Part shown: positions 1 through 5,914 of the stretch, piece by piece
Layout: every line of letters starts with the position of its first letter
Numbering within the stretch: the first letter of the stretch is position 1
NCBI RefSeq assembly: GCF_002177135.1
Contig: NZ_MWPH01000004.1
Location: 248,001 to 312,000 of the forward strand
From: Natronolimnobius baerhuensis
GTDB lineage: Archaea; Halobacteriota; Halobacteria; Halobacteriales; Natrialbaceae
Reading direction: 5' to 3'
Length of the DNA stretch: 64,000 bases
Program-made: the position numbers and the translations under genes
Notes under the pieces: generated by a model
Databases searched by the model: none
What the model saw: only the letters and a program-made list of their open reading frames with translations
What the model was told of the DNA's origin: nothing

Positions 1-506
1 ATCTCGGTGTCGTACCCCTGGGCGTCCTCGTGCTCTTTGAACAGTCGGACCGCTCGACGGAGTACCGACCGGTCGAACTCGAGGCCGGCCTCCTCGAGGC
101 GATCGGCGAGTGGCGTCGTCAGTCGGAGCGCCTGGACCTTCGACAGCGTCTCGTCGTCGGCCCAGCAGCCGATCCGCGAGCAGCTGCGGCAGGTCGTCCG
201 AGCGATGGACGTCCGCTGCTGGCCGGGGCGCGACTGGGCGTCGCCGGCGTCGCCGCGGCGGGTCGATCCCGAGCCACCGTCGACGTCGGTAAGGATTCGG
301 TCGTCCGGCTCGAGGGTCGCCGCTGGTGTGCGGTGGTGCTCCTGGACGTCGTGATCATCGACGCCGCCGCTGAACGTTGCCTCCTCGATCTCTTTGACGA
401 GTTCGAAGCAGCCGTTACAGCAGCGACTATTCTGCCAGACGATACGGTCGAACGCCCGTTGTGGGGAGACGTGGTCGTCTCCGCTCGGTGAATCCGTTGT
501 TGACAT
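1..506 (-). CDS. Cys-rich hypothetical protein of the integrated element (3' end outside window)
   Basis: The minus strand is open from an ATG at 506 to the left edge, so the C terminus is missing. The visible 168 residues hold two cysteine groups, one near residue 30 (CCNGC) and one near residue 120 (CRSCSRIGC), separated by an acidic, disordered-looking stretch. This pattern suggests a structural zinc site. The last visible part is charged and helical. An in-frame ATG lies 39 bases further upstream, so the start is not certain. I do not recognise the family. The gene points the same way as the other genes of the element and follows a TATA-like stretch near 595-612. Codon-like periodicity is clear on this strand; the plus-strand reading of the same bases looks like a shadow. 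Confidence 0.6.
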   Translation of the reverse strand, partial: MSTTDSPSGDDHVSPQRAFDRIVWQNSRCCNGCFELVKEIEEATFSGGVDDHDVQEHHRTPAATLEPDDRILTDVDGGSGSTRRGDAGDAQSRPGQQRTSIARTTCRSCSRIGCWADDETLSKVQALRLTTPLADRLEEAGLEFDRSVLRRAVRLFKEHEDAQGYDTE

Positions 507-692
507 GGCTGGAGAAAAGCATCGCTGCAGGGCGGACGTGATCATCGTCGACGACGTCGGCGGTCGTCGACTCGACGCCCTGTAGCGATCGTATTACCTT
601 TTGATAAGTCGTTGGGAGATAATAAGCCCGTGTGTAAGCGCCAGAATGGCGATTGTTACTCTGAAAGGGGTGGTTTTGCAGGTTGAAGCGTG

Positions 693-1187
693 TTAGGAAA
701 GGCTCAACCGTCCAAGTGCGTAACCAATAATCATCAATAAGGCACCTACAAGAAGCAGCCAGCGAAGGGAAAGATCAAGAGATTGTAATCCAGTCAGAGT
801 TTGACCAAGCGCTCCTACTGCTAGAACAACGGTCAATAAAGCAATAAGACTGTTATTTCGGAGTTCTCGTTCGTTCATCTCCCGTTCATGTGCGACGTCA
901 AATCCTTTTGGAGTAAGTTCAAAAAACCCAGCCCCATCATCTTCGATTAAATTTTGTTTTTCAAGGAATGACAGCGCTGACTTCACTTGCGAACGAGTGA
1001 GGTTTGTTCTTTCGACTAAGGGATGATCAGATCGAATAATAGCCGGGTCTCCACGACCGAATGTCTCCCACTTTTCTTCCCGGGAATATAAAAACAGTAG
1101 GAGCTCTACCCAATTCTGTTGCTCAATTCTCCTTCCTGGGAGTCGTTCTTTCCACATATCATTCATGAATTCAAGATATCCGAACAA
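693..1187 (-). CDS. Winged-helix protein with two C-terminal membrane helices
   Basis: A 164-residue protein. Residues about 20-110 read as a winged helix-turn-helix, with a recognition-helix-like segment (TRSQVKSALSFLEKQNLI) and a following turn ending in FELTPKGFDV. Residues about 113-163 contain two hydrophobic helices. Small regulators with this layout are frequent in haloarchaeal mobile regions, where they may sense or signal from the membrane; that role is inference. The DNA is clearly more AT-rich than the flanking genes, and codon choice differs (many AAT, ATA, TTA), which fits recent transfer. A second ATG at residue 8 is a possible start. No specific family is recognised. Confidence 0.75.
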   Translation of the reverse strand: MFGYLEFMNDMWKERLPGRRIEQQNWVELLLFLYSREEKWETFGRGDPAIIRSDHPLVERTNLTRSQVKSALSFLEKQNLIEDDGAGFFELTPKGFDVAHEREMNERELRNNSLIALLTVVLAVGALGQTLTGLQSLDLSLRWLLLVGALLMIIGYALGRLSLS

Positions 1188-1204
1188 TGTTTTGGTATTG
1201 ACCG

Positions 1205-1453
1205 TTAGGAGTTTCGGTCAAAAAGCCGAACACGAACACACCGAAGGTCCTTCGTGTCACGAACTCGCTCGGCGATTCTTTTGCTTTCAAGTTGATCGAG
1301 TGCCCTATCGACTGTTCGCTCAGATAGTCCTGTTCGGTTCTGGAGCTTTCTTCGAGAAAGCGATTCGTCGGCGTCTTCAAGCACGAATACAACGTACTTC
1401 GCACTCGGGGAAAGATCTTCGTCGACGTCGGTGGTATGTTCGGGGAGGCTCAT
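1205..1453 (-). CDS. Small winged-helix transcriptional regulator
   Basis: An 82-residue protein consisting almost only of a MarR/TrmB-like winged helix. Helix 2 and the recognition helix are visible at residues 33-60 (SRRKLQNRTGLSERTVDRAL), followed by a wing ending in RCVRVRLF. It lies 17 bases upstream of the AT-rich winged-helix/membrane gene and downstream of the large replication gene, all on the minus strand. Such one-domain regulators commonly control the copy or excision genes of archaeal plasmids and proviruses; here that is inference from context. The ligand and target are unknown. Confidence 0.8.
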   Translation of the reverse strand: MSLPEHTTDVDEDLSPSAKYVVFVLEDADESLSRRKLQNRTGLSERTVDRALDQLESKRIAERVRDTKDLRCVRVRLFDRNS

Positions 1454-1528
1454 GGGCTTCGTTTCGTGGAGAGTGCTGCGGCTGGTTGCAGACGGGCAAT
1501 CGTGGCCTCGAGACGCCGGTTGAAGGCG

Positions 1529-4500
1529 TCAGTCACTCCGATCAGGACCGGCTTTCCAGTCCCATTCACCAGCCGACTGATTACTCGAGTCGGTTGCGGG
1601 TCCTAGATCACCGTCGTCCGGGGTAGTTGGGTCGCGGATCGCCAACGTCCACCTACTAGTGTTCCAGTAGGGGTCAGTTGGCGATTCGTGAATGTCTACA
1701 ACGCCTGCATTCGGTAGTCCTGAGTCGCTATACAGCGTCGCTCCGTTCGGACCGCTCTCCGGGATGGCTTGCACCGCGGGTTCACCGTGACCGTCGTCGC
1801 CGAGGCGCTCGAGCGTCTGGCGAACGTGCTCCTTGCTGCAGTCGACGACGTCGGCGATCTCTCGTGTCGTCTTCGCACCAGTACTCGAGCGGAGTTCCTC
1901 GACGATCGCCTCCTGGTAGTCGGTGAAGACCCACTCGACGCCCGGTGTCTGGACGTCGGCGAACCCGGCGGGCATCGCATCCGTACGAACGAACACCGTC
2001 GCCGTGACGTCGGGATCGGTCGGGTCTCGAGCGTATCGGCCGGCGGCCTGGGCGATGTGGTTCTCGCGAACACTGGCGAGGATCTCCTGGGCGGTTTCAG
2101 CGTCGTTGCCCTCGAAGCCGCGACCGCGGGCTCGGTATTCCTCACCGGCATCGTCGACGGCGGTCTCCACCTCGGCCTCGAGGTCAAGTTCGGCCAGCAA
2201 GTCGAGGACGTAGTCGTCGCCGGGATCCATGCAGCCGTTGACGAGGCCGACACGCTCGTGCTCGAAGTCGTTCCGTGACTTCTCTTCGCCGAAGTGCATC
2301 AACTCGGGACGGTGGCAACCGGACTCTTCCATCAGCTCCTCGAGGCGGTCTTCGACTTGCCCCGTTGTGATCGCCGTGCGGAACTGGGTGCCGTACTCCT
2401 CGACGAGCTGTTCGAGCAGGACCTCGAGTTTGTCTTCGTTCAGCCACTCGAGCGCTTTGTCACCAGACAGTGGACGGGTTGCGTCGCCGACCTGGACGAC
2501 ACGGAGCCCACGCTCGTAGCGTCGCCACAGCTGGCGGGCTTCGGGCTCGAGAACGTTGGTCGTCTTGATCCACGGGGCGGTGTTGGCTTGCCACAGCGGC
2601 ACTGCGGGGTGGGCATCGAGTCCGACAACCGAGCGAGCAGCGCCGAAGTCGGGAACAGTTCGGACAGTCTGGATGTCGTTGTTCTCGTCGAGGACGACCG
2701 AAACCCATTCGCGGTTCCAGTCATCGTCATCGCTCACGCCGGCCTCGAGGCGAGGCGGTTCGTGTCCCGTCTTCCCGAATCGACGTCCGTTGGCTCGCTC
2801 TTCGGCTCGGAAGATAGCTCTCGCGAGCGCAGGTGCGAGCGTGTGTGCATCGGGATCCTCGAAGTACCAGTCTCGGTCGGGCTCTTCGTAGAGGACGTCC
2901 TCGAGGGCATCGCGCTCTTTCGCAGCGTCGCCCTGGTAGTCGTCGTGCAGCGAGAGTTGGATGAACGCCTCCCAGGTCGTAACCGGGGCGTCGATCTCGC
3001 GGAGGTAGGCACCGACGGCGTCGCGGATCCGTTCGGTGGTGAGGTCCTCCTGTGCGTAGCTGGGTTGTTCGTCGACGATGACGTTGTTGTGTGATCGGAG
3101 CCCGGGTGCGAACGCGAAGTTGTGCGTCGCGATGACGAGCGGCCAGTAGTCGAGCTCACCGTCGGGTCCCTCGCGGTAGGTCTCCCACTGTGTGATCGCC
3201 GAGCAGCGGTCACCGCCGCAGGGTAGTTCGACGCCCTGGTCGTTGTGTTCCTCGAGGTAGCGATGGGCCGCCGAGAAGGGCATTCCCTTGCCGTCAGTGT
3301 TACACTGGGTGTCGAGCCACTCACTGGCGGGCTCGCCGTTGATCGAGATTTCGTCGTCGTGGTCACCCGCACAGACGGGGCAGGCCTCGTGGCGTCCAAG
3401 AAGGACGTGGTACTGCCCGCCGTGCTCTTCGGCGACGTCGACGGCTTCGTCGCGGGCGTCGCGTGTCTCGAGTAGGTGAACGACCGGCCGGTCACCGGTG
3501 ATGTCTTCGCGAGCGCCCCATCGCGTCGACGCGGTCGTGTAGGACTTGCCTAGCGACGTCGGGGCATCGACGATCCGCTCGTCTTCGTTCCGGATCACGT
3601 CGGCAATCGTCTCGAAGAGCTCTTCGCGAGCGTCCTCGGTTGACGGCCACTCGAGCCCCCGCTTCTTGGCGTAGCGCCGGCGTTCATCCGGCTCGAGAGC
3701 ATCGAGAAGGCCAATTGGGAGTGCCGAGACGGCACGGCCGTCGCCTGATCCATCGCTTGGGGGTTCGTATTTCGGGATTGGTGCACCGGCGTTTCGTGCC
3801 CGCTCGACAGCATCCCGGAACTTGCTCTTTTTAAGGTCATCCCACGGGTTGGAGATGATGTTCTGTTCCGCAGCGAACAGTCGGAGCACACCAAAGGCGG
3901 TGTGCATCTTTTTCATGTCGATGAACTGGCCGTCTCCGACGTGTTTCAGCGACCGTCCGCTGCTCGAGTTGCGGTAACCTGGATCCCACGACTCAAAGTC
4001 GTTGTTCTCGTCTGCGACGTACGTCGACGACAGCGGGAGGTCGCTCGGCTTGAGCTGGTTGACCGCGTCGATAACGTCGTCATAGTCGTGCGTGATCTCG
4101 ATGCCCGCGAGTTCCTCTCGAGACTTCGCTGGTGTGTAGTCGGTATGGTGAACGCCATCACTCGAACTCTCTTCCTCGACGGCGTCGGGATGTTCGTCGA
4201 CGAGCGCGTCGATCACTACCTGGACGTCCTCGATGTCGTCGGCGGAACCGGGGATCTTGTCGCCGGTGACCGTCGTGTAGCGCCGTCCGGGGTAGACTTC
4301 GATCTCTGCGTCGAGCCACTCGTCATCGGAAACGTCGATGTGGAGTTCCTTCGCATCCTCTGGGAGCGTGAACGACCCGAGAGCGTGTGCACCAGTTCCA
4401 GAAGGCGACCACTCGCAGAACGTCACACCGAACCGCTCGAGCCATGGGACGGCTTTCGGGGCGATCTCGCCGGTCTCCGGATCGCGGATGTTATCGAAGT

Positions 4501-5170
4501 CGGCGAGTCCGACGTGGCGCGTGTCGGGGACGTCTTCGTCGACGTCAACCCAGTCGTACTTCTCATCATCATCCCAGTCGTCGCGATCGGGGGAAACGAG
4601 GTAGTACGCGAGTCCAAGCGACCCATCGTGGTCGGTCCAGCGTTCCGCACCACTGAATTCGAACCACGCTCGAGGGTCTTTCGCACCGGCGAGTGACCAT
4701 TCACCTGCCGTCGCCTCGTCGTCTTCGGAGTGTCCCCAGCGTGGGTTTCGCGGGATCTTCCGGTCGTCGCGGTACTGCCAGAGCAGCCAGCGCTGTCCGT
4801 CTTCGCGAAGGCTCGTCGGGTGCCCCTCGCTGCTCGAGGAGAGTTCAAGGTCAACACGCTCGAGGTCGTCACTCGAGGTGGACGAAGACGACCGGTCGTC
4901 GGTAGAATCGCCGCCGATATCGCTCGTAGAGGGAGCGTCGTCCGTCTCGACAGAGTCGTCAGTGTCGACGAACTGCAGGCCGCTGCCGACACCATTCGCG
5001 AATTCGACAGCATCAGTTGCACTCAGCGCTTTGCGGAATTCGCTTTCACTCCACCCGTTGGCCTTCGCCGTCTCGAGGAGTTCCGTTCGTGGAACAGGCT
5101 CGTCGTCCTCGAGGCCGAGGAAGCCCCGTGTCTCCCAGAAGATCGACTCCCAGTCGATGCCAGGACTCAC
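1529..5170 (-). CDS. Primase-polymerase/Fe-S helicase fusion (element replication protein)
   Basis: A 1213-residue multi-domain protein. Residues about 125-310 carry the three signatures of an archaeo-eukaryotic primase domain: an acidic pair in GLADFDN near 221-227, SGTGAH near 257-262, and EVYPGRRYTTVTG near 291-303. After a linker, an SF2 helicase follows, with a Walker A-like DAPTSLGKSYT near 535, a DEQP Walker B box, and HIAQAAGRYAR as motif VI. Between Walker A and B lie cysteines spaced as HEACPVC, TQC and LPCGGDRC, the place where XPD/Rad3 helicases hold a 4Fe-4S cluster. A winged helix (TTREIADVVDCSKEHV) sits near the C terminus. It probably primes and unwinds DNA for replication of the integrated element. 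Its start overlaps the stop of the 78-residue gene upstream by 4 bases. Function is inferred from motifs only. Confidence 0.85.
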   Translation of the reverse strand: MSPGIDWESIFWETRGFLGLEDDEPVPRTELLETAKANGWSESEFRKALSATDAVEFANGVGSGLQFVDTDDSVETDDAPSTSDIGGDSTDDRSSSSTSSDDLERVDLELSSSSEGHPTSLREDGQRWLLWQYRDDRKIPRNPRWGHSEDDEATAGEWSLAGAKDPRAWFEFSGAERWTDHDGSLGLAYYLVSPDRDDWDDDEKYDWVDVDEDVPDTRHVGLADFDNIRDPETGEIAPKAVPWLERFGVTFCEWSPSGTGAHALGSFTLPEDAKELHIDVSDDEWLDAEIEVYPGRRYTTVTGDKIPGSADDIEDVQVVIDALVDEHPDAVEEESSSDGVHHTDYTPAKSREELAGIEITHDYDDVIDAVNQLKPSDLPLSSTYVADENNDFESWDPGYRNSSSGRSLKHVGDGQFIDMKKMHTAFGVLRLFAAEQNIISNPWDDLKKSKFRDAVERARNAGAPIPKYEPPSDGSGDGRAVSALPIGLLDALEPDERRRYAKKRGLEWPSTEDAREELFETIADVIRNEDERIVDAPTSLGKSYTTASTRWGAREDITGDRPVVHLLETRDARDEAVDVAEEHGGQYHVLLGRHEACPVCAGDHDDEISINGEPASEWLDTQCNTDGKGMPFSAAHRYLEEHNDQGVELPCGGDRCSAITQWETYREGPDGELDYWPLVIATHNFAFAPGLRSHNNVIVDEQPSYAQEDLTTERIRDAVGAYLREIDAPVTTWEAFIQLSLHDDYQGDAAKERDALEDVLYEEPDRDWYFEDPDAHTLAPALARAIFRAEERANGRRFGKTGHEPPRLEAGVSDDDDWNREWVSVVLDENNDIQTVRTVPDFGAARSVVGLDAHPAVPLWQANTAPWIKTTNVLEPEARQLWRRYERGLRVVQVGDATRPLSGDKALEWLNEDKLEVLLEQLVEEYGTQFRTAITTGQVEDRLEELMEESGCHRPELMHFGEEKSRNDFEHERVGLVNGCMDPGDDYVLDLLAELDLEAEVETAVDDAGEEYRARGRGFEGNDAETAQEILASVRENHIAQAAGRYARDPTDPDVTATVFVRTDAMPAGFADVQTPGVEWVFTDYQEAIVEELRSSTGAKTTREIADVVDCSKEHVRQTLERLGDDGHGEPAVQAIPESGPNGATLYSDSGLPNAGVVDIHESPTDPYWNTSRWTLAIRDPTTPDDGDLGPATDSSNQSAGEWDWKAGPDRSD

Positions 5171-5403
5171 GCCGTCTCACCTCGCACAGCGCCGCGGACT
5201 TTGCGAGAGTCTGCTTTCGAGCAGTCAAAGCAGAGTGTGTTGTGTGGGTGTTCCTCGTCACGACCGATTGCATAGAGTTCGCGATCAACGGCCTCAGGAT
5301 CGAACGTCCGTCCGCAGTAGGTGAGTCCTACCAGGCTCTCGAAGCAGTAGCCGTTGTGGCCATTGTCGAGGTTGACCACGTAGCCGGTCGTCACGCTGAC
5401 CAC
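5167..5403 (-). CDS. Small Cys-containing hypothetical protein
   Basis: A 78-residue protein with cysteines at about residues 20, 30, 58 and 61 (YCFESLVGLTYC and LCFDC), a plausible zinc site. The length and Cys spacing resemble the small zinc-finger proteins found beside replication genes in haloarchaeal plasmids and proviruses, but I cannot assign a family. It overlaps the primase-helicase gene downstream (TGA/ATG type overlap) and the gene upstream by 13 bases, so the three form one transcript. Confidence 0.7.
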   Translation of the reverse strand: MVSVTTGYVVNLDNGHNGYCFESLVGLTYCGRTFDPEAVDRELYAIGRDEEHPHNTLCFDCSKADSRKVRGAVRGETA

Positions 5404-5627
5404 CCCCAGTCTTCAAGCGTCGTCTGGCCGTCGACGTCAGGACGTTCGACGTCGTCTCCCTCGGAGTCAATTTCCGGAACGCCCTCGGTTCGCTCTTCTC
5501 CTTGTGGTTCTGGGTCGCTAGCGTATTCGACCTTCTCGGCCTGCTTCTCGAGCTCGGGACGCTCGGTGATCGACTGGTAGGTGGCGTCGATTGAAACGCC
5601 ACGGGCCTCGCGACGGCCAGCTACCAT
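5391..5627 (-). CDS. Small acidic protein with PIP-box-like C terminus
   Basis: A 78-residue acidic protein, first gene of the element's operon, 133 bases from the tRNA-Met 3' end. The N-terminal third is charged and helical, the middle is disordered and rich in Glu and Asp, and the C terminus ends in QTTLEDWGW. That ending resembles the PCNA-interacting motif Q-x-x-[LIM]-x-x-aromatic. If real, the protein could tether the element's replication proteins to the host sliding clamp; this is inference. The downstream small Cys protein and the primase-helicase overlap in a chain, which supports a shared replication role. Confidence 0.65.
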   Translation of the reverse strand: MVAGRREARGVSIDATYQSITERPELEKQAEKVEYASDPEPQGEERTEGVPEIDSEGDDVERPDVDGQTTLEDWGWSA

Positions 5628-5654
5628 GCCGCCACACCTCCGTTAGCCGAAGAT

Positions 5655-5745
5655 ATCGCTGTATGTAGTTGATCGGTGTCACTACCGAGAGTGACGAAAC
5701 CCGCGCTTTCACCCCAATAGGGAGGGGTACTTACGCGGGCATGTA
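5655..5745. repeat. Nested inverted repeats at the element end
   Basis: Between the first element gene and the tRNA-Met there is a GTCAC/GTGAC inverted repeat (about 5676-5693), then CCCGCG matched by CGCGGG with an inner ACCCC/GGGGT pair around the sequence AATA (about 5700-5741). These could be binding sites for an excisionase, a replication initiator or a regulator, or a promoter structure. The role is unknown. Confidence 0.5.
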
Positions 5746-5759
5746 AAGAATTTGATGAG

Positions 5760-5914
5760 TGCCCGGGGAGGGCTCCGAACCCTCGATCTCCGCATGTCCC
5801 AGGTCCGAGGCTCGGCATGAGTCCTCGTGGGGACACGGAGGCTTCCAAGGCGAAACCGCACCGAATCTCTGAACCCTATGAGTGCGGCGCTATGTCCAGC
5901 TAAGCCACCCGGGC
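5760..5914 (-). tRNA. Elongator tRNA-Met (CAT) with intron
   Basis: The minus strand folds as a tRNA. The acceptor stem is GCCCGGG/CCCGGGC, the anticodon stem CCGCA/TGCGG, and the T arm GAGGG-TTCGGAG-CCCTC, with discriminator A and no encoded CCA. The anticodon loop reads CTCATA followed by an insert of about 81 bases and then the last loop base. This matches the known haloarchaeal elongator tRNA-Met, whose intron sits in the anticodon loop and is cut by the archaeal splicing endonuclease. The 3' end faces the foreign-looking genes at 1-5630, which makes it the likely attachment site for that element. Confidence 0.93.

Follow-up and report, generated by a model that had tools for sequence, protein, structure and literature searches.

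A predicted primase–XPD/DinG-type helicase fusion with exchangeable primase modules in a haloarchaeal provirus and related plasmids

Results

We analysed a 64,000-nucleotide stretch of the Natronolimnobius baerhuensis genome (contig NZ_MWPH01000004.1, positions 248,001 to 312,000; hereafter the window), concentrating on a single large gene at 1529–5170. Sequence comparisons and structural models predict that its product combines in one chain an archaeo-eukaryotic primase (AEP) domain, a superfamily 2 (SF2) helicase of the XPD/DinG type and a C-terminal winged helix. The gene and its parts are listed below; L numbers here and throughout designate other loci used in the comparison.

1529–5170, minus strand: PrimPol / XPD-DinG-like helicase / winged helix-turn-helix (wHTH) fusion gene, 1213 amino acids, GTG start
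4136–4819, minus strand: AEP (PrimPol) domain, residues ~118–345, by PHROG, PDB, motif alignment and fold
3728–3745, minus strand: module junction, residues ~476–481 (DGRAVS); sliding identity to L013 is ~20% upstream and ~95% downstream
1916–3730, minus strand: SF2 helicase of the XPD/DinG type, residues ~481–1085, by profile, hhalign and Foldseek
3542–3568, minus strand: Walker A / motif I, DAPTSLGKS (535–543), K542 invariant in 50 relatives
3203–3382, minus strand: Cys/His insert (C597, C623, H636, C651, C656) where XPD has its iron–sulfur (Fe-S) cluster
3068–3073, minus strand: Walker B / motif II, D700–E701, invariant in 50 relatives
2027–2050, minus strand: motif VI, QAAGRYAR (1041–1048), with Q1041, R1045 and R1048 invariant in 50 relatives
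1781–1915, minus strand: C-terminal winged helix, residues ~1086–1130, where the profile matches MarR-type winged helices

The GTG start overlaps the stop codon of the upstream open reading frame (ORF). Comparison with L001, a 92%-identical relative, gives a ratio of nonsynonymous to synonymous substitution rates (dN/dS) of 0.10, and a chance ORF is ruled out because the frame is under purifying selection. Neither Pfam nor NCBIfam returned anything significant for the 1213-residue protein and standard annotation therefore misses both domains; what is absent is the models, not the domains. A fold model covering residues 111–1213 has a mean predicted local distance difference test score (pLDDT) of 79, with the helicase mostly above 85–90, and matches DinG (2e-10), XPD (6e-9) and NrS-1 PrimPol (5.8e-8) in Foldseek.

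The original prediction, made from the DNA letters and translations alone, proposed a PrimPol domain with three AEP motifs, and this was borne out by profile, structural database, motif conservation and fold. PHROG DNA primases match residues ~118–370 (6.6e-11 and 3.4e-10), and a phmmer search of the PDB matched the SaPI5 primase (7ola, 7e-7) and the NrS-1 primases. The DxD, SxH and hD/E motifs of the AEP superfamily are present in this order, and the motifs DFD (224–226), SPSGTGAH (255–262), IEVY (E291) and RRYTTVTG (296–303) are kept in 26 AEP-bearing relatives. R297-Y, which comes after motif III, may be compared with the Rh of PrimPol-PV1 motif IV; several relatives have KH there. In a VIA-align comparison with NrS-1 PrimPol (6a9w), the AEP part of the model aligns over 160 residues with a Z score of 13.1 and 27% identity, and to judge by this predicted fold NrS-1 PrimPol is the nearest solved relative of the module.

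AEPs also occur in other arrangements. The L017, L018 and L019 regions contain a second, stand-alone AEP gene (L067 9771–11117, L068 8897–10198 and L069 11647–12942), and the L067 protein bears the NrS-1 polymerase HBD domain (4.4e-30). Larger AEP–helicase proteins of 1485–1658 amino acids, encoded at L104, L106 and L109, match both helicase halves and have long insertions. Three proteins of 1231–1285 amino acids (L105, L107 and L108) carry a related AEP with no match to the helicase of the fusion and no Pfam helicase.

The second half of the prediction, an XPD-like helicase with a QAAGR motif VI, is upheld by profile, fold and the invariant SF2 motifs. A profile built from 50 relatives of residues 475–1190 has Sulfolobus tokodaii XPD as its top match among PDB sequences and thus as its best helicase match (2vl7, 1.2e-4); the other leading matches are winged helices, at the C-terminal domain (profile positions ~591–668). 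When the profile is aligned by hhalign with 25 haloarchaeal XPD proteins, VIATHNFA falls on the XPD sequence that precedes DEAH, and the top single SF2 match in hhalign is the fuselloviral Rad3-like protein ASV1_C559, over motif I and the insert. A separate model of the helicase part (pLDDT 87, predicted template modelling score 0.85) matches DinG, CasDinG or XPD in rows 1–17 of the Foldseek results (6e-11 to 5.5e-7; DinG 6fws at 6e-11), and other families start at 6e-6. In VIA-align DinG is the top match of this model, with Z 14.5 and 428 residues aligned, and the 111–1213 model scores Z 13.1 against DinG.

Two scores are less decisive. The hhalign score against XPD alone is modest (Prob 44%), and the VIA-align Z scores of DinG and XPD (12.3–14.5) are near to or tied with those of RecQ, NS3 and SecA (up to 13.4). 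Given the modest hhalign score, we base the XPD/DinG assignment jointly on the profile, the fold and the order of the motifs, and what tells DinG and XPD apart from RecQ, NS3 and SecA is the Foldseek order together with the aligned length, which reaches ~470 residues for XPD and is mostly ~230–290 for the other three. The Walker B motif keeps DE and departs from the DEAH of XPD and DinG, with mostly QP, EP or RP next. By these sequence and model comparisons the nearest solved relatives of the fusion helicase are DinG and XPD. An SF3 helicase of the pRN1 ORF904 type was considered and ruled out, since motif VI and the best fold and profile matches are those of SF2. As for the fuselloviral protein, ASV1_C559 is encoded at L139 5276–6955 and has a Cys-rich insert of its own; ASV1_C674 was considered as its primase partner and rejected, as Pfam returned only weak MCM-like matches and no AEP.

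Cysteines between motifs I and II had led to the proposal that the helicase carries an XPD-like four-Cys Fe-S cluster. The position is real, and C597 falls on the matching Cys both in XPD 2vl7 and in haloarchaeal XPD, but the four cysteines do not behave as one set. C600 is not conserved among relatives, and among 34 of them C597, C651 and C656 are each kept in 33 and C623 in 30. Across 65 helicases, the residues at 597/623/636/651/656 read CCHCC in 38, the window protein included, and CCKCC in one, while 23 have C-other-H-C-C and lack C623. Three more (L054, L077 and L081, in two tree lineages) have jointly lost C597, C651 and C656 and retain C623; they represent natural cluster-less variants of the family. 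The four-Cys reading is weakened because C623 does not covary with C597, C651 and C656. The residues that do covary, C597/H636/C651/C656, could hold either Fe-S or zinc, and a Cys3-His site of either kind appears at least as likely as a four-Cys cluster.

That the insert is a zinc-binding structural or DNA-binding finger built on these four residues, and not an XPD-type [4Fe-4S] domain, has in our view only slightly less than an even chance. The XPD cluster is normally held by four Cys, and the finger would account for the 23 helicases that dispense with C623 and for the three that keep it after losing its would-be partners. Yet the insert lies between motifs I and II with C597 on an XPD Cys, all four Cys and the His are together in the 38 helicases of the window type, and Fe-S can also be held by Cys3-His.

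Comparison of the window protein with L013 points to exchange of the primase, a feature that, like the provirus setting described below, was no part of the original prediction. The helicases are ~95% identical (dN 0.056) and the primases ~20–35% identical (dN 0.81), with a sharp change in identity near residue 477. Moreover, the window primase is nearer that of L017 (dN 0.33), though the L017 helicase is more distant. Because the helicase is near-identical and the primase divergent, we interpret the difference between the window gene and L013 as a primase-module replacement. Elsewhere a DnaG-type primase stands ahead of the helicase (L006, L009, L029/L055, L031, L033, L032/L054 and L176), with DNAG_N above cut-off in L054 and L176, Toprim_2 in L176 and PriCT_2 in L029. 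L100, with a PF09250 Prim-Pol (3.4e-10), and L176, with DnaG/Toprim, are 84% identical over 626 helicase residues and unrelated at their N-termini; L058 (AEP) and L006 (DnaG) share 75.5% identity over 694 residues. In a maximum-likelihood tree of the 65 helicases, well-supported branches force the DnaG label to change at least five times. Four others carried the label of an unknown N-terminus; two of these, L037 and L177, gave weak or clear Prim-Pol matches, so the AEP count in this tree is a lower bound. As far as sequences can tell, the helicase and wHTH form a stable platform ahead of which primases are exchanged, among them two AEP subtypes, the PF09250 Prim-Pol and DnaG/Toprim.

One helicase relative without an AEP, L025, matches the Gins51 C-terminal domain at residues 16–59 with a value (8e-6) just under the cut-off. 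A GINS–helicase fusion there would, if true, be striking.

The fusion gene is the first large gene inside the right end of a provirus. The elements of this setting and the neighbouring ORFs are as follows.

1–5772: right end of a ~42.1-kb head-tailed provirus (G000:C4:211646-253772, G000:C4 being the contig numbering used below) with virion genes and integrase
5760–5914, minus strand: intron-containing tRNA-Met (CAT), provirus integration target (ARAGORN with introns; Rfam RF00005, 8.9e-8)
5760–5772: attachment (att) core TGCCCGGGGAGGG; it recurs at G000:C4:211646, ~0.5 kb away from the match to the integrase domain
5391–5627, minus strand: 78-amino-acid ORF, first after the attachment site, conserved in L001 and L002
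5167–5403, minus strand: 78-amino-acid ORF just upstream of the fusion gene, overlapping its start; 5669–1419 is conserved in L001
1205–1453, minus strand: 82-amino-acid winged-helix ORF downstream of the fusion gene, MarR-like, with a PHROG replication initiation match (2.4e-5)

The window starts inside the ~42-kb provirus, whose end we place at 5772 because an att lies there at the tRNA-Met 3′ end. A default ARAGORN search detected no tRNA where the provirus ends, and the tRNA-Met surfaced only with introns allowed. The 13-bp repeat occurs at C4:211646 and C4:253760, the second copy being the tRNA-Met 3′ end; by itself such a repeat would be expected by chance an estimated ~0.7 times in that search, and it was accepted as att because it falls on a tRNA 3′ end and lies ~0.5 kb from a tyrosine integrase match (G000:C4:212152-212613). 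Genes for the tape measure, head protein, portal and both the large and small terminase subunits lie upstream of the window (L040, L061), and these virion genes, the integrase and the att pair in a tRNA gene therefore identify a head-tailed (Caudoviricetes-like) provirus. Besides the fusion protein, no other primase or helicase was recognised in it, and the provirus region gave no match to MCM or to a family-B polymerase. Near the fusion gene, no origin-like direct repeats or iterons were found.

Several other features of the element may be recorded. A provirus ATPase of the AAA+ class with a Cdc6 lid (Orc1/Cdc6-like) is a possible origin-binding partner. A 12-bp perfect inverted repeat, GGGCATGTAAAG, adjoins both att copies (window 5737–5748 and G000:C4 ~211672–211683) and possibly represents integrase arm sites. 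A 14-nucleotide inverted repeat (93% complementary; window 521–534 / 576–589) adjoins the start of ORF 3–545, in a region conserved in L001 and L002.

Homologues occupy similar settings. In 11 further relatives (L041–L049, L051 and L057) the gene lies 31–971 bp from a tRNA 3′ end, and virion genes are found near the homologue in L001, L002/L045, L041, L042, L053 and L177. Others are on small plasmids. A homologue of almost full length (27.6% identity over 83%) is encoded on an 8896-bp circular plasmid of Halorientalis litorea; Pfam scans of six other proteins of this plasmid detected only an Mrr-type nuclease and an integrase, and no other replication protein. A homologue with the DnaG version is on a 10.8-kb Halomarina plasmid and a further one on the 23.7-kb phalar02. 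At 1e-10, matches occur in 104 of 392 Halobacteria genomes; among 295 genomes of the phylum, those outside Halobacteria gave winged-helix matches only and no helicase match. A search of viral contigs with the fusion protein matched one contig. Two BFVD viral proteins, A0A1P8DJ66 and A0A1B1IQ42, align over 902 and 763 columns and may share the architecture, so that the family may not be confined to haloarchaea.

Discussion

Altogether, the sequence and structural comparisons lead us to favor a model in which the fusion protein serves both a haloarchaeal head-tailed provirus and related small plasmids as their replication primase-helicase, a role that we consider likely. This role is suggested because the protein is the sole candidate Rep on the 8896-bp plasmid and the sole recognised primase and helicase in the provirus, and also because the pairing of primase with helicase survives exchange with an unrelated primase. 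We envision a scenario in which the winged helix brings the protein to the origin of the element and the helicase then moves 5′–3′, as XPD and DinG are known to do, and would thus travel along the lagging-strand template. Primers would be laid behind the helicase by the attached primase and extended by the host polymerase and clamp, which we invoke since the provirus yielded no family-B polymerase.

Several considerations weigh against this model. For 27 of the 65 relatives, the chain was called as helicase with no primase recognised in it. The fusion protein need not be the initiator, because the provirus also encodes a Cdc6-like ATPase (L061 4735–5796, minus strand; G000:C4:218735-219796). 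The polarity, processivity and replicative role of the helicase we infer from knowledge of its family, and that family includes CasDinG, a DinG relative with a role other than replication.

It is possible, although we think it unlikely, that the protein acts as an initiator and not as a fork helicase, with the wHTH binding the origin, the motor melting it, the primase making the first primers and host MCM unwinding the fork thereafter. XPD and DinG are non-hexameric helicases whose known roles lie in DNA opening and repair, and neither is known to act as the only helicase at a fork. Another contig carries the host MCM, and pRN1 ORF904 likewise ends in a winged helix (PMC4158269, PMC4234260). 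Against initiation alone, a primase stays fused to the helicase even where an unrelated one has taken its place, which suggests that priming goes on at the fork, and the search for an origin or iterons near the gene was negative. A role in repair, replication restart or action against the host, as for DinG, XPD and CasDinG, with the primase repriming and dispensable to replication of the element, would fit nearest solved helicase relatives that serve in repair and CRISPR systems, but is very improbable given that homologues are candidate Reps on 9–11 kb plasmids, are found in viruses and plasmids alike and adjoin tRNA 3′ ends at the 11 further loci, and that no repair or CRISPR genes were seen beside the fusion gene in the provirus.

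If the protein is a replication primase-helicase, it could be that a non-hexameric XPD/DinG-type motor serves as the sole fork helicase throughout a family of viruses and plasmids that is widespread in haloarchaea, and that its primase partner has several times given way to an unrelated enzyme, AEP or DnaG-type. We regard this stronger proposal as tentative, somewhat less probable than its opposite; if true, a repair-type motor would form the core of a replisome in which the primases are interchangeable. Since the same helicase platform takes an AEP or a DnaG-type primase, the family lets the interchangeability of non-homologous primases at a fork be asked directly. Our findings also attach testable functions to proteins annotated as ‘hypothetical protein’ or ‘MarR family’ in about a quarter of the sampled haloarchaeal genomes.

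In the literature that we searched, which covered few subscription journals, we found no report of an AEP–XPD/DinG fusion or of AEP/DnaG replacement ahead of one helicase. Several known systems nonetheless resemble the fusion protein in part. It would work like DnaB–DnaG, T7 gp4 or herpes UL5–UL52, but with an XPD/DinG-type motor. Herpes UL5/UL52 and T7 gp4 couple primase to helicase at the fork, and UL52 is an AEP; UL5 is an SF1 helicase, gp4 is a hexameric RecA-type motor and the herpes subunits are separate, all of which differ from the window protein. XPD/Rad3 and DinG (8rev, 2vl7, 6fws) share with it the helicase fold, the motif order and an insert between motifs I and II. Unlike them, the window family has a Walker B of the DE[QERF]P type instead of DEAH and conserves Cys3-His instead of Cys4, and the window protein has a fused primase and wHTH and a viral or plasmid setting. 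Fuselloviral ASV1_C559 (FJ870917) is similarly an XPD-type helicase in an archaeal virus, but is stand-alone with no primase attached.

A close parallel in architecture is pRN1 ORF904, a PrimPol–SF3 helicase–wHTH protein (PMC4158269, PMC4234260). This single replication protein of a small archaeal element has its parts in the order seen in the window protein, with an N-terminal prim-pol, a helicase and a C-terminal winged helix. Its helicase is SF3, and that of the window protein belongs to SF2, is of the XPD/DinG type and carries a Cys/His insert. Mpal_2033 / arCOG07809 proteins combine a primase with an SF1 helicase, an HTH and a Zn finger (PMC4158269); they resemble the window family as AEP–helicase–HTH proteins of small archaeal integrative elements with primase-less versions. 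Their helicase is reported as SF1, and in the 295 genomes of the phylum no sequence match to the window helicase was found outside Halobacteria. In the PrimPol-PV1 supergroup, the All3500 family has C-terminal domains remotely like SF2 (PMC5862659) and thus joins a mobile-element AEP to an SF2-like ATPase, but the closest homologues there are phage proteins, some of them UL9-like, and PMC5862659 does not mention XPD or DinG. AEP–helicase–wHTH fusions and AEPs with UL9-related SF2-like partners were already known, and it is for the XPD/DinG-type partner that the literature searched offered no precedent. Described primase-helicases of mobile elements mostly use SF3, DnaB/RepA-like or SF1 helicases, and the AEP–XPD/DinG combination predicted here adds an unexpected motor to this repertoire.

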